From Haladaptatus cibarius D43 (lineage in GTDB: Archaea > Halobacteriota > Halobacteria > Halobacteriales > Haladaptataceae), in the NCBI RefSeq assembly GCF_000710615.1, contig NZ_JDTH01000002.1, forward strand, positions 860,082 to 924,081: a stretch of DNA of 64,000 nt, read 5' to 3'. The position numbers were made by a program, and so were the translations under genes. This document shows, in pieces, positions 3,253 to 58,557 of the stretch (its first letter is position 1; the number at the start of each line of letters is the position of its first letter). The notes under the pieces are model-generated. The model did no database searches, was not told the origin of the DNA, and saw only the letters and a program-made list of their open reading frames with translations.

Positions 3253-3349
3253 TCTCTGGAATACGGTAAGGGGAGAACGAAGGAGAAACGTGTGGATTTG
3301 TGACCGTCTTTGCGAAAACTGTATTCAGGAGAACAGAAACCACTGCGAC

Positions 3350-3720
3350 TGCAGAAGTCACGACTCCAAACACGCCCTCGCTCGGGCAGTCACTCGTGGC
3401 TTCACCACTCGTTCCGTTCTCGCTCGCCCGAATCCACCAGGCCGCCGGGCCGGGCGCGCCAGCGCGCCCGGCCAACCCAAGTTCGGCCTGCCGCTTTCCT
3501 GGAAACTCGCCTTCCGACAAACGAGAGCAAGCCAATCAGTCACTTGGCGGGGCCGAGGGCAGTCGCTCTCGGCCCCGCCTGCTGTTCCTGGTGTCTCAAA
3601 ATCGCCGAGCGATTTTGATGGCAGGGAAGAGCTTGCCTCTTCCCGTGGCAACGGGCGAGCGAAGAGTAAGCGACTGCAAGGAGCGAATGATGAGCGAGGG
3701 CGTGACGTAGAGTCGTGATT
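3350..3720. repeat. Nested inverted-repeat element with four hairpins
   Basis: A gene-free stretch (3222-3844) contains a multi-branched palindromic structure. The outer stem pairs 3358-3366 with 3710-3718 (9 bp), 3371-3383 with 3692-3704 (13 bp) and 3421-3430 with 3652-3661 (10 bp), with a possible GCAGTC/GACTGC pair between them. Inside lie four perfect hairpins: 3448-3458/3463-3473 (11 bp, 4-nt loop), 3547-3557/3568-3578 (11 bp, 10-nt loop), 3597-3604/3610-3617 (8 bp) and 3624-3631/3637-3644 (8 bp). Several frames are open across it on both strands, but they read as low-complexity Arg/Ser/Pro peptides. It could be a structured RNA, a MITE-like element or a decayed repeat. I know of no named family that fits. 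Confidence 0.65.
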
Positions 3721-3844
3721 TGCAAACGACTCGGCTACACCAACCCTGTCCCCACCAATCACAAACAAACCAGTCTCACGAGCGAGCCATCGTTTTTCTC
3801 GCAAACATCGAACGACTGAAACCCCATCCCGCTAACCACATCCC

Positions 3845-4531
3845 ATGGGCGTCCAACTCGACACGCAAGAAGAACAGTTAGCGGAAATTCTGGAGCGACT
3901 CTACGACGAATATCCGGACGCGACCATCTCGCTCAACTTCTCGACGCGCCACGAACTGCTCATCGCGGTGATGCTCTCGGCCCAGTGTACCGACGAGCGT
4001 GTGAACAAGGAGACGGAACACCTGTTCGAAAAGTACCAGTCGGTGTCTGATTTCGCCGAGGCCGACGTGGACGAACTGGCCGAGGATTTGAACTCGATTA
4101 CCTACTACAACAACAAGGCGAAGTGGATAAACAGCGCGTGCCAGACCATCATCGAGGAACACGACGGCGAGGTGCCGGACACCATGAGCGAACTCACCGA
4201 CCTGACTGGCGTCGGGCGGAAGACGGCCAACGTGGTTCTTCAGCACGGCCACGACGTGGTCGAAGGAATCGTGGTCGATACGCACGTTCAACGTCTTTCG
4301 CGGCGACTGGGACTGACGGAGGAAAAGACGCCGCAGAAAATCGAAACCGACCTGATGTCGTTCGTGGACGAAGATGACTGGCAGTGGCTGACCCACCTGT
4401 TCATCAGCCATGGACGAGCAACCTGTACGGCCCGGAATCCCGACTGTGACGACTGCGTGCTGGAAGACATCTGTCCGTCTTCGAAGGTCGATAATGAGAT
4501 TGACCTCGCCAGCGGCGAGGCGTGGGGATAG
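3845..4531 (+). CDS. nth: Endonuclease III (DNA glycosylase/AP lyase)
   Basis: 228 residues, close to the family length. The helix-hairpin-helix motif LTGVGRKTANVVL spans about 120-132, with the catalytic lysine at K126 and the catalytic aspartate at D145 (VVDTHV). The four cysteines of the [4Fe-4S] loop are C194, C201, C204 and C210 (C-X6-C-X2-C-X5-C). The enzyme removes oxidised pyrimidines and cleaves the abasic strand in base excision repair. All key residues are present. It stands alone between the inverted-repeat element and a DUF1917 gene. Confidence 0.93.
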   Translation: MGVQLDTQEEQLAEILERLYDEYPDATISLNFSTRHELLIAVMLSAQCTDERVNKETEHLFEKYQSVSDFAEADVDELAEDLNSITYYNNKAKWINSACQTIIEEHDGEVPDTMSELTDLTGVGRKTANVVLQHGHDVVEGIVVDTHVQRLSRRLGLTEEKTPQKIETDLMSFVDEDDWQWLTHLFISHGRATCTARNPDCDDCVLEDICPSSKVDNEIDLASGEAWG

Positions 4532-10914: not shown

Positions 10915-11664
10915 CTACTCGCCTGCGGCGTCGATTCGCGTTCCGGGCGTTTCCCCATCGAGAAACGAAGATACGTCGTCCGGGGAGAAAATCGACGCCG
11001 GAGCGCCGAGTTCGAGAAGCGAGCGAACTTTTCCGGCCATGCCGCCGGTCACGTCGGTCGATTCGCTCTCGCCGAGTACGTCCGCGACAGCTTCGTAGGC
11101 CGTGATTTCGGGGATGACCTCGTCGTTTTCGTCCAACACTCCCGGAACCGTCGAACAGAAACCAACGCGGTCGGCGTCGAGGTGGCGTGCCACCGAGACG
11201 ACGAGTTCGTCGCCGCTGACGACGGTGACGCCTTCGCCCTCGTGGGCGACCACGTCGCCGTGGAGAACAGGGACGAATCCCTCTTTCAGCATCGTCTCGA
11301 TTTGTTCGGTCGGGAGGGTGAGAGACGCGACTGCGTCTCTCACCGCGGCGGAGAACGGATGGACGGGAACGGCTGGAATTCCTCGGTCGTGAAGCCACGA
11401 GAGGACGAAGTTGTTCAGGGTCTTCATCGCGCCGTGGATGTCGGTGACCGCGTCGATGTCGCTACTCCCGCTCGTTTTCGACACGCCGTGTTCGCTCGCG
11501 TGGTGGTGGCCGAAACTGCCGCCGCCGTGAACCAACACGAGGTCGTCCACGCTCGCGTCGCTGATTGCATCGCTGACTTTCCCGAGGGTCTCGCCATCGA
11601 GCGTGTCGGCACGGTCTTTGTCCGTGATGACGCTTCCGCCGAGTTTGAGGACGGTGAGACTCAT
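10915..11664 (-). CDS. ipk: Isopentenyl phosphate kinase
   Basis: 249 residues of the amino-acid-kinase fold. Motifs are LKLGGSVITDK at the N-terminus, LVHGGGSFGHHHA (the histidine here matches the catalytic substrate-binding His of IPKs), a GDVV loop, and DVTGGMAGKV near the C-terminus. It converts isopentenyl phosphate to IPP with ATP, the last step of the alternate mevalonate pathway. Its ATG overlaps the mevalonate kinase stop (ATGA), so the two are one translationally coupled unit. Glutamate 5-kinase is an alternative fold relative, but the HHHA motif and neighbour argue for IPK. Confidence 0.9.
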   Translation of the reverse strand: MSLTVLKLGGSVITDKDRADTLDGETLGKVSDAISDASVDDLVLVHGGGSFGHHHASEHGVSKTSGSSDIDAVTDIHGAMKTLNNFVLSWLHDRGIPAVPVHPFSAAVRDAVASLTLPTEQIETMLKEGFVPVLHGDVVAHEGEGVTVVSGDELVVSVARHLDADRVGFCSTVPGVLDENDEVIPEITAYEAVADVLGESESTDVTGGMAGKVRSLLELGAPASIFSPDDVSSFLDGETPGTRIDAAGE

Positions 11665-34186: not shown

Positions 34187-34256
34187 GCGCGAGGGTTGGA
34201 ACCGGTGGGTACTGAATACTTTGGTTTCACCCCACCACCTTTTGCCGCGGTCGGGA

Positions 34257-34291
34257 GTCGAATCCGGCGTCACAATGACGCCGGATTCGAC
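34257..34291. repeat. Perfect 16-bp inverted repeat upstream of halocyanin
   Basis: GTCGAATCCGGCGTCA (34257-34272) is followed by a three-base loop and its exact reverse complement (34276-34291). It lies about 70 bp before the halocyanin start. It could be an operator, or a transcript-end hairpin for the upstream M42 peptidase gene on the same strand. Confidence 0.7.
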
Positions 34292-34550
34292 CTTCCCCCC
34301 TGACAAAATCTGAACCAAAACCTCGGTGCTCCTTTCCGTCCCCGCCGAGTCCGCTCATTCGTCGCTGTCGCTCCTCATTCGCGGTGGGTGGGCTGGCCGC
34401 TAGCGGTTGCGTCGATTGCTGTTTCTGGCGACTGTGTCCATTTCGACTTCTGTGGGTGCCCTGTTTGCTGTTTCTGGCGGTTGTGTCACCAACCTATCGC
34501 TCGAATCGACTCGTTTCACGAGTCAATTCGTCGCTAAAAAATAGCCGAAG
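34292..34550. other. Gene-free region with a 23-bp direct repeat
   Basis: Between the inverted repeat and the M42 peptidase stop, no credible gene is seen. TTGCTGTTTCTGGCG-A/G-C/T-TGTGTC occurs at 34416-34438 and again at 34465-34487 with two mismatches. Near 34500-34530 a small palindrome (GACTCGTTTCACGAGTC) occurs. Confidence 0.5.
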
Positions 34551-54801: not shown

Positions 54802-56552
54802 ACCATCCGAACAGAAATACGCTGTGGGCCGAGACGTTCGTAGACGAGTTAGCGAAGGCGGGCATCGACGCGGTGTGTCTCGCTCCCGGTAGTCGCTCGA
54901 CGCCGCTGACGGTGGCGTTTGCAACTCACGGCGACATCGAAGTGTTCTCCCATTTGGACGAGCGGTCTGCCGCCTTTTTCGCGCTCGGACGGGCAAAGCG
55001 CACGGGGAAACCGACGCCAATCGTCTGTACCTCAGGAACCGCGGCGGCGAACTTCCACCCTGCAATAATCGAGGCCGACAGGGCGCGCGTGCCGATGCTC
55101 GTCTGCACCGCAGACCGGCCCCCGGAACTGCGGGACAGCGGCGCGAATCAGACCGTTGACCAAGAGAAACTGTACGGCGATGCAGTTCGCTGGTATGCAG
55201 ACCTCGCGGAACCCGAGGCGAACGCGCGCAAACTGCGGTATCTCCGGACGACGACCGCCCGCGCGCTCGGGTCGGCCACCGGAACGCCACCGGGGCCGGT
55301 GCATCTCAACTTCCCGTTCCGGAAACCGCTGGAACCGACCGAAGTTTCTGGCGACGTGCCGGAGAATTTCGAGGACGAAGAATTATTCGCGGCGTCGGGA
55401 CGCGACGGCCCGTTCGTTCGGGTGTCGCAGGGCGTTCCCGAACTGGATTCCGCACGGCTTGCGGACATCGCCGAACCCGTTTTGAATGCGGAGCGGGGCC
55501 TGCTGATTGCAGGCCCCGCCGACGCACCGACGCCGACACGAACCGCGCTTGCGAAGTTGGCCGACGAAACCGGGTTTCCGATTCTTGCAGACCCACTGTC
55601 GGGCCATCGATTCGGCCACGACAGAACCGTCATCGGGGGATACGACTCGTATCTCGTTCCGGAAGTGACCGAGGACTGGCCAGATCCGGATGTCGTCCTG
55701 CGATTCGGAGCCTCGCCGACTTCGAAGGTTCTGCGGAACTATCTCGAACGAACCGACGTACAGCAGTACCTCGTGGATTCCGCGGGCGGATGGCGCGAAG
55801 CGACGTTTACCGCGACAGACCTCGTTGTAGCCGACCCGACGCGGTTCGCCCGCCAATTGGCGGGCGAACTCGCGGGAGGAGACCCATCCGACGAGACGTG
55901 GACATCCCGCTTCGGGCGCGCGGAGTCGTGCCACTGGAAATCGGTCGCGGAATCGAATGCCCACTTCGAAGGTGGTGTCCTCGCTTCGGTTGCCGAACTC
56001 CTCCCCGACCCGGCGACCCTGTTCGTCTCGAACAGCATGCCGGTTCGGGACATCGATCGGTTCGGAAGACCGCACTCGGCCGACGTAACCGTCCTCGGCA
56101 ACCGCGGCGCGAGCGGTATCGACGGCATCGTCAGTAGCGCGCTCGGGGCGGGCAGCGCCACCGACGACCCGCTGGTTCTCGTGACCGGCGATGTTGCCTA
56201 CTACCACGATATGAACGGACTGCTCGCGCTCGCGCGCTGTGGCGTCGATGCGACCATCGTGGAAATCAACAACGATGGCGGGGGAATCTTTCATATGCTC
56301 CCCATCGAATCGTTCGACCCGCCGTTCACCGGCCAGTTCAAAACGCCACACGGACTCGATTTCGAGGCGACGGGTGAACTCTATGACTTCGATTTCGACC
56401 GCGTGGAGTCGCTTTCGGCGTTCTGTGAGCGATTCCGGGCATCCATCGACCGGACGGGAACACAGGTCATCGAAGTCGTGACTGATGCGGAAGCGAGCCA
56501 TCGAACGCGCGAGTCGTTACAAAAATCCGTCGTTCACGAACTATCAGACTAA
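54798..56552 (+). CDS. menD: SEPHCHC synthase MenD
   Basis: 584 residues from the ATG at 54798. TPP-family features: DAVCLAPGSRSTPLTVAFAT, HLDERSAAFFALG (catalytic Glu), CTSGTAAANFHPAIIEA, GANQTVDQEKLYG and the C-terminal VTGDVAYYHDMNGL with INNDGGGIF for Mg-TPP. It adds 2-oxoglutarate-derived succinic semialdehyde to isochorismate in menaquinone synthesis. The quinone would feed the NDH-2 and b6f-like enzymes of this window. Confidence 0.95.
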   Translation: MNHPNRNTLWAETFVDELAKAGIDAVCLAPGSRSTPLTVAFATHGDIEVFSHLDERSAAFFALGRAKRTGKPTPIVCTSGTAAANFHPAIIEADRARVPMLVCTADRPPELRDSGANQTVDQEKLYGDAVRWYADLAEPEANARKLRYLRTTTARALGSATGTPPGPVHLNFPFRKPLEPTEVSGDVPENFEDEELFAASGRDGPFVRVSQGVPELDSARLADIAEPVLNAERGLLIAGPADAPTPTRTALAKLADETGFPILADPLSGHRFGHDRTVIGGYDSYLVPEVTEDWPDPDVVLRFGASPTSKVLRNYLERTDVQQYLVDSAGGWREATFTATDLVVADPTRFARQLAGELAGGDPSDETWTSRFGRAESCHWKSVAESNAHFEGGVLASVAELLPDPATLFVSNSMPVRDIDRFGRPHSADVTVLGNRGASGIDGIVSSALGAGSATDDPLVLVTGDVAYYHDMNGLLALARCGVDATIVEINNDGGGIFHMLPIESFDPPFTGQFKTPHGLDFEATGELYDFDFDRVESLSAFCERFRASIDRTGTQVIEVVTDAEASHRTRESLQKSVVHELSD

Positions 56553-57315: not shown

Positions 57316-58557
57316 TCAGGTTCCGAGCGCGAGCGGCCCCATCAACACGCCCATCAGGTGTACCCGGCGACAGCCAACTCGTGGAGGAAGCAGACCGAGG
57401 AGAATACTCACGAGGAAGATGCCAATGCCGACGATTCCCGCGAACAGGAACGAGGCCACGACTAACAAAGAAAGAACGCCGAATGAAAGGGTTCGATACT
57501 CCATCCGTCCGACCGTTTCGAGATACGTATCACCCAGCACGAGAACGAGGACGAATCCGACGATTCCGGCGACTGCGACACTGACCAACAGTGTCGGCAG
57601 ATGAAGCGGTGTATTCGTCTCCCGAAGTGCGACCATCACGCCGGTTCGGGGCGTACCGAGGGCGACGAGTGCAAATAAAGCAAAAACCGTGTTCGCCGTG
57701 TTGACGCCGCTCGTCGCTACGATGAAACCTCGCCCGCCGGTTCGCCCCGGAACGAGCGCGAGCGCGATGACCGCCGCAATCGCGCTCGAAACGCCGGGTA
57801 GGTAGCCGACGATTGCGCCAGCGACCGCACCCGCGAGCGCGGTTTGCCCCACGTCCCGCCGTGGAGTTGTAACGGTCGCCGACGACTGCTTTGGCACGCC
57901 TGCTCCGTCCATCGCATCGACCAAGACGGGTGCACCGAACAACCCGGCAAAGAGCGGGGTCAGCACGCCGCCCGCGTCCAGCGGTGCGGCGGGCGACAGG
58001 TCGAGCGTCACGACGCCGAGTAGCACGCTCGAACAGAAAGAAACGAGGCCGCCGACTCGCCCGCGCATCGTGGCCTCGGTGACGATGAGAAATCCCGCAA
58101 CTCCGGCGAGGACGAACGGCATGTTTTCCCTGACGAACGGATACGCCGTGGTCATGAGTTCCGTCACGGGAATTGCGAGTGGAACGGCGAACGCAACCGC
58201 CAGACCGCTTCCCAGGGCCGAGAGGCAAATCGCCTCTCGGCCCTGTCCCTCGATGACGAGTCGATGGCCGGGGAGCGCCGACACCGCCATCACGGGGTCG
58301 GGAACCCCCAACGCGAGCGTCGGCACGACATCGAGAAACGAATGAACGACGCCCGCGGCCAGCATCGACGCACCGACGAGTTCCGGCGGCCCGGGAACCG
58401 CCGGAGCGACCGACGCGAGCAGCAAGGCGAGGTTGTTGACGTGAATTCCCGGCGTCAGCCCGCTGATTGTTCCGAGCGTGACGCCTCCAAGAACGAACGC
58501 GAGCGTCGTTACCGTCATCGCCGGAGCAACCACCAACCGCGTTCCGAACACCTCCAT
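57316..58557 (-). CDS. TctA/DUF112-family membrane permease
   Basis: 413 residues with about ten membrane helices. The N-terminal TISGLTPGIHVNNLALLLAS and the central GYLPGVSSAIAAVIALALVP are the duplicated glycine-rich motifs of the tripartite tricarboxylate TctA (DUF112) fold. Archaeal members stand without TctB/TctC, and none is found nearby. A promoter GTTTAAATAC lies at 58581-58590. Substrate unknown. Confidence 0.8.
   Translation of the reverse strand: MEVFGTRLVVAPAMTVTTLAFVLGGVTLGTISGLTPGIHVNNLALLLASVAPAVPGPPELVGASMLAAGVVHSFLDVVPTLALGVPDPVMAVSALPGHRLVIEGQGREAICLSALGSGLAVAFAVPLAIPVTELMTTAYPFVRENMPFVLAGVAGFLIVTEATMRGRVGGLVSFCSSVLLGVVTLDLSPAAPLDAGGVLTPLFAGLFGAPVLVDAMDGAGVPKQSSATVTTPRRDVGQTALAGAVAGAIVGYLPGVSSAIAAVIALALVPGRTGGRGFIVATSGVNTANTVFALFALVALGTPRTGVMVALRETNTPLHLPTLLVSVAVAGIVGFVLVLVLGDTYLETVGRMEYRTLSFGVLSLLVVASFLFAGIVGIGIFLVSILLGLLPPRVGCRRVHLMGVLMGPLALGT

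Follow-up and report, generated by a model that had tools for sequence, protein, structure and literature searches.

At least one haloarchaeon is rich in repeats that lack a transposase (PMC3119063). The published class nearest to the element described here is that of the small mobile repeats (SMRs) of Haloquadratum. SMR-A and SMR-B of Haloquadratum walsbyi have terminal inverted repeats, are free of transposase and have an enigmatic mode of mobilisation; they measure about 80–110 bp, are mostly more than 95% identical and lie within other mobile elements. ‘SwitchRepeats’, in which one and the same position carries different or inverted repeats, are listed as well (PMC3119063). The PATEs are without terminal inverted repeats and have near-terminal palindromes related to IS605-type ends (PMC3119063), and the REPINs need a RAYT (Y1) transposase (PMC3116915).

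The element lies in a window of 64,000 nucleotides from Haladaptatus cibarius D43, in a non-coding gap between two divergent genes, and is about 370 bp long. A sequence-only reading had placed at 3350–3720 a long stem that encloses four hairpins in a row. Both stem and hairpins were found to be present in the sequence and the gap to be non-coding, with the element slightly wider than that span. Of the three stem arms, given earlier as 9, 13 and 10 bp, the first two were found at these lengths and the third at 11 bp. The hairpins, reported as 8 to 11 bp and all perfect, include one (hairpin 2) of 15 bp with a single mismatch.

Table 1. Features of the element and its surroundings, in window coordinates.
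Feature	Position	Strand	Basis or detail
Whole element, with both end motifs, the beta and alpha arms and blocks X and Y	3345–3724 (approximate)		fold z −10.5, dispersed homologues, ends from copy comparison
Left end motif, variant GACTGCAGAAGTCACGACTC	3347–3366	+	terminal in other copies too, e.g. L063 and L067; H. litoreus and H. pallidirubidus share the flank
Right end motif TGCAAATCACGACTC	3710–3724	−	71 matches in the H. cibarius genome at ≤2 mismatches; reversed control 0			
Left arm, type beta: CACGCCCTCGCTC ... local GTGGCTTCACCAC ... CTCGCCCG	3371–3435	+	stem and arm analysis
Right arm, type alpha	3647–3704	−	stem and arm analysis
Stem, outer arm 1	3358–3366/3710–3718		9 bp perfect within a 12-bp arm (92%)
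Stem, outer arm 2	3371–3383/3692–3704		13 bp perfect
Stem, third arm	3420–3430/3652–3662		11 bp perfect within an 18-bp arm (83%)
Block X: CACCAGG, hairpin 1, conserved linker, hairpin 2, CCTGGTG	3436–3593	+	model R1, covariation, inversion
Hairpin 1: GGCCGGGCGCGC / GCGCGCCCGGCC	3448–3473	+	11–12 bp; stem search, covariation
Hairpin 2: GGCGGGGCCGAGGGC / GCTCTCGGCCCCGCC	3546–3579	+	15 bp, single G-T mismatch; stem search, covariation
Block Y: hairpins 3 and 4	3594–3646	+	stems, copy comparison
Hairpin 3: TCAAAATCGC	3596–3618		10 bp
Hairpin 4: GGGAAGAG	3624–3644		8 bp
Neighbouring gene, presumably a mevalonate-pathway GHMP enzyme	3221–2247	−	translation
Neighbouring gene, presumably nth (endonuclease III)	3845–4531	+	translation

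The anatomy of the family was derived from 60 loci. Copies terminate in the end motif or its variant, and the terminal inverted repeats of the window copy (AAGTCACGACTC / GAGTCGTGATTT, 92%) have ends that other copies share. The arms, about 60 bp each, have a common outer part (CACGCCCTCGCTC) and a common inner part (CTCGCCCGTTGCC) and differ in the middle, which reads TCACTCGCTCCTTGCAGTCGCTCACTCC in type alpha and AGTCACTCGTGGCTTCGCCACTCGTT in type beta. Both arms were recognised in 17 elements, many of which carry an alpha arm opposite a beta arm. For this reason the arms of a given element resemble each other no more than arms paired at random (0.29 in both cases), and concerted evolution of an element's two arms is not supported. 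In block X a conserved linker (CCAACCCAAATTYGG ... CACTTG) connects two GC-rich hairpins; the block was found in both orientations relative to the arms. Block Y is missing from some other copies or stands reverse-complemented next to X, and further hairpins occur elsewhere in the family (GCGAAAGAC, GGAAAACC, GCAAACG and GGAAATC).

Like the SMRs, the element is haloarchaeal, too short for a transposase and bounded by terminal inverted repeats apparently unrelated to those of a known transposon. No target duplication was evident for the SMRs, nor for the element at the inspected sites. It differs from them in its size, in being a mosaic of hairpins, in the 70–90% likeness of its copies and in its position between host genes with conserved coding flanks; neither a length of about 80–110 bp, nor an identity above 95%, nor insertion into other mobile elements was found.

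MITEs are marked by terminal inverted repeats, by an autonomous transposon with matching ends and by a target-site duplication. The element resembles them in being short, non-coding and dispersed and in its terminal inverted repeats, but it has at least four internal hairpins that switch class, and no transposon with the same ends was found in its genome at ≤2 mismatches. Target-site duplication was not evident at the inspected sites, which offered no clean empty site from which the junction could be read; the two apparent candidates seem to be deletions, L055/L183 resembling a loss of the core with fused ends and L077/L200 apparently lacking one arm. Among the interpretations given by the sequence-only reading, the MITE-like one comes nearest, as to dispersal, ends and lack of coding capacity, and falls short as to the partner transposon. 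A decayed repeat array, also proposed there, is unsupported.

With the PATEs (PMC3119063) the element has in common that it is haloarchaeal, transposase-free and palindromic and that its copies are heterogeneous; it differs in its terminal inverted repeats and in a host genome without a Y1 transposase. The BOX elements of streptococci (PMC3049150) are alike in build only, with end modules around a variable middle, an intergenic position and a predicted fold, whereas the modules of the present element invert and are each a hairpin, and no sequence relation is expected with a host from an archaeal genus. REPINs and BIMEs (PMC3116915) are likewise dispersed extragenic palindromes in inverted pairs, with a single-strand hairpin and solo ends as remnants, but the present element is larger, with several different hairpins. 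The literature searched, which was mostly outside subscription journals and curated IS databases, holds no description of this 370-bp repeat family.

A BLASTN search of the H. cibarius genome with the element as query gave 83 matches at E ≤ 10, a threshold reaching chance level. They resolve into at least 20 well-supported places, of which contigs C1 and C2 contain nearly all. In the other genomes of the genus, dozens of matches were obtained in H. litoreus CGMCC 1.7737 and H. pallidirubidus YIM 93656 and none to three in the rest, the copies in the own genome and in relatives being 70–90% identical. A covariance model of module X, R1, had 38 matches in H. cibarius, 55 in H. litoreus and 24 in H. 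pallidirubidus, some of which are both strands of one palindrome. In some other Haladaptatus genomes R1 matched one to four times and in other genera with weak E-values only; across 195 genomes of the order, its matches at E ≤ 1e-5 were confined to Haladaptatus. No match came from plasmid, phage or viral collections, nor from scanning named genomes for exact patterns.

The copies occupy sites that are conserved between species. Each of the 21 H. cibarius sites examined has syntenic flanks in H. litoreus, and most of them also in H. pallidirubidus; the element is carried at at least 14 of the 21 in the former and at least 11 of the 21 in the latter, with a flank identity mostly of 85–94%. Since most copies stand at sites shared by the three species, the spread of the family is placed in their ancestor. 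Interiors are colinear at L064/L085, L069/L076 and L070/L081. At the nth site, block X has the reverse orientation in H. litoreus, positions 102–293 of the compared H. cibarius stretch matching 421–230 of its counterpart at 83%. The core is also inverted between L090 and L103 (245 bp, 88%), between L070 and L098 and between L080 and L100, and at other sites it is swapped or missing. In H. pallidirubidus, the nth site has similar ends and a similar left arm, and a right side with four different hairpins. In four further genomes, G001, G005, G007 and G008 (L139, L136, L138 and L137), the nth gap holds no element and contains a small predicted membrane-protein ORF, which is absent from the three element-bearing species.

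Inspection of 20 sites with the end motif placed most of them in a second hairpin family, GCAAATCACGACTCCAATGAAAACCGC ... CTCCCCAACCGATTC ... CATCCCTCGCGCG with hairpins and a mirrored arm, which has the same ends and a different interior and was matched in 25 of 28 genomes of the archaeal family. The occurrence of two unrelated interiors between the same ends suggests a common machinery acting on these ends. Copies of the second family are about 315 bp long, with the end motif GCAAATCACGACTCC and their own arms and core (L119:731–1045; L113–L132; contigs C1 and C2 of H. cibarius). At L114, L131 and L132 (e.g. L132:680–751), pairs of outward-facing end motifs surround a similar AT-rich spacer of about 28–30 bp, like TGAAACACGATATAATCAAATGGGGATGA; this spacer is possibly a junction, a target or a promoter.

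Two candidate drivers were rejected. Facing pairs of end motifs within 3 kb of each other in the H. cibarius genome (≤2 mismatches) all lie about 300 bp apart and none spans a transposase, so a transposon with the same ends was not found there. The Y1/RAYT transposase (PF01797) is present in H. litoreus and H. pallidirubidus and has no match in H. cibarius.

The feature is probably one of many palindromic DNA repeats, modular, non-coding and dispersed, that were once mobile without being autonomous and that multiplied in the ancestor of the three Haladaptatus species. Each copy is built from terminal motifs of the TGCAAATCACGACTC type and alpha and beta outer arms, with exchangeable near-perfect hairpin blocks (X, Y and others) between them. 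The copies would have been spread by a trans-acting machinery that recognised the common ends and is now lost or yet to be recognised. This mobile step is one we infer: no transposition event was seen, and the own genome yielded no autonomous partner. Present change would take place mainly at the existing sites. The inner inverted repeats beside X, CTCGCCCGTTGCCACCAGG and its complement, may recombine or allow template switching and so invert the core, the simplest route given that the outer arms keep their orientation, and hairpins may be swapped through recombination with other copies. At the DNA level, templated repair of extruded hairpins, selection for a DNA strand able to fold, or both would preserve the complementarity of the stems.

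The rates of change within block X bear on the last point. In seven orthologous pairs compared in register, about 6% of stem sites and about 22% of linker sites differ, the latter value being inflated to some extent by alignment error; L058/L087 and L067/L092 (out of register), L060/L109 (not orthologous) and L057 (truncated) were excluded. Stems slower than linkers are not what one would expect of a purely neutral repeat. Unbiased arm-to-arm repair would not slow them this strongly either, so that the likely cause is GC-biased repair or purifying selection for the palindrome, two processes that are not separable here.

Slow stems are also in line with a host function. We consider it rather unlikely that the copies form a domesticated, invertible set of multi-branched DNA structures, in which modules flip or are exchanged at fixed sites and a host protein reads the selected fold together with an end motif common to the second, widespread haloarchaeal family. 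It also seems unlikely that the repeat is domesticated in a broader sense, as a DNA element that owes only its origin to movement and whose cruciform or folded single strand is under selection as a site for binding or recombination, for instance in the organisation of chromosomes or in supercoiling linked to transcription. Such a role would fit the maintenance of sites in three species while their interiors change, as well as the distribution of the copies: all 60 loci lie between predicted genes without overlapping any, and the H. cibarius sites, window copy included, comprise 6 convergent, 3 divergent and 10 co-directional gaps, more convergent ones than expected from gaps in general in that genome (59, 126 and 236). 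However, the core has been lost at some sites, as at L055 in both H. litoreus and H. pallidirubidus, copies are scarce or absent in six further Haladaptatus genomes, and GC-biased repair could also slow the stems.

The preferred reading, a DNA repeat once mobile, also has to be weighed against a multi-copy family of structured RNAs or UTR modules, with stem and hairpins selected in the transcript. The compensatory changes that the sequence-only reading had proposed to look for are abundant. In a model-based alignment of 42 copies of block X, paired cells amount to 91.3% and 21 of the 28 pairs are doubly changed; the covariation score of 0.268 (0.097 when shuffled) was reached in none of 500 shuffles, and sliding the pairing partner by one base destroys the covariation. 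Hairpin classes alternate as wholes (GGCCGGGCGCGC, GGGCGGGCAGGCC, AACGGGCGGGCC and GGGCGGGCGCGCC), each self-complementary. This very strong covariation, the conserved sequence of the linkers between hairpins and the lower variation of stems among orthologues would all suit an RNA.

For an RNA under selection, the transcribed strand is expected to show more G-U than A-C mismatches. The two long hairpins have 16 G-U and 17 A-C mismatches, and therefore no strand signal. A control with 16 tRNAs of this material, in which mismatches were read position by position because ARAGORN brackets cannot show A-C mismatches, gave 8 and 0; the difference is in the expected direction (Fisher p = 0.013), the control being small. 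Moreover, block X occurs either way round, both when orthologous sites are compared and with respect to the arms, the window copy lies between two divergent genes, and Rfam, searched at threshold and permissively, returned no family, with weak matches far under the gathering scores. Within the reach of these data, it is on the DNA that complementarity is maintained. The lack of a strand signal and the inversion of X in situ favour a palindromic mosaic repeat at the DNA level over a structured RNA, and the new structured RNA suggested earlier, to which the covariation alone would point, is quite improbable.

The segment 3340–3730 folds with z = −10.5 on the plus strand and −8.4 on the minus strand, none of 100 dinucleotide shuffles being as good, and 60 sampled loci of the family have a mean fold z of −5.0, compared with −1.4 in other intergenic gaps and −1.0 in coding segments. 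The arms are rich in CTCGCTC-type sequence, but that GC-rich low-complexity sequence folds on paper by chance or composition is refuted by the z-score of the window copy, by many homologous copies with covarying stems and by coding segments and most other gaps without such folding, and deserves next to no credence. The earlier statement that chance cannot easily give such stems was therefore sound; the outcomes it had named as fatal to its case, a lack of homologues, a lack of covariation and stems due to GC bias, are clearly not what was observed.

Strong covariation by itself is accordingly no proof of a structured RNA. Counting G-U against A-C mismatches and looking for inversion in situ provide a simple test that separates the maintenance of palindromes at the DNA level from selection on RNA. 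The family is a tractable case, with dozens of orthologous-site copies in three relatives, inversions and swaps that can be read site by site, and a defined end motif common to two element families.

Other hairpins were observed in the window. A perfect hairpin of at least 16 bp, GTCGAATCCGGCGTC ... GACGCCGGATTCGAC, is located at 34224–34300 in a gap between genes, and perfect hairpins of 11–14 bp lie inside predicted genes at 58213–58245, 55493–55519, 55844–55869 and 11317–11344.
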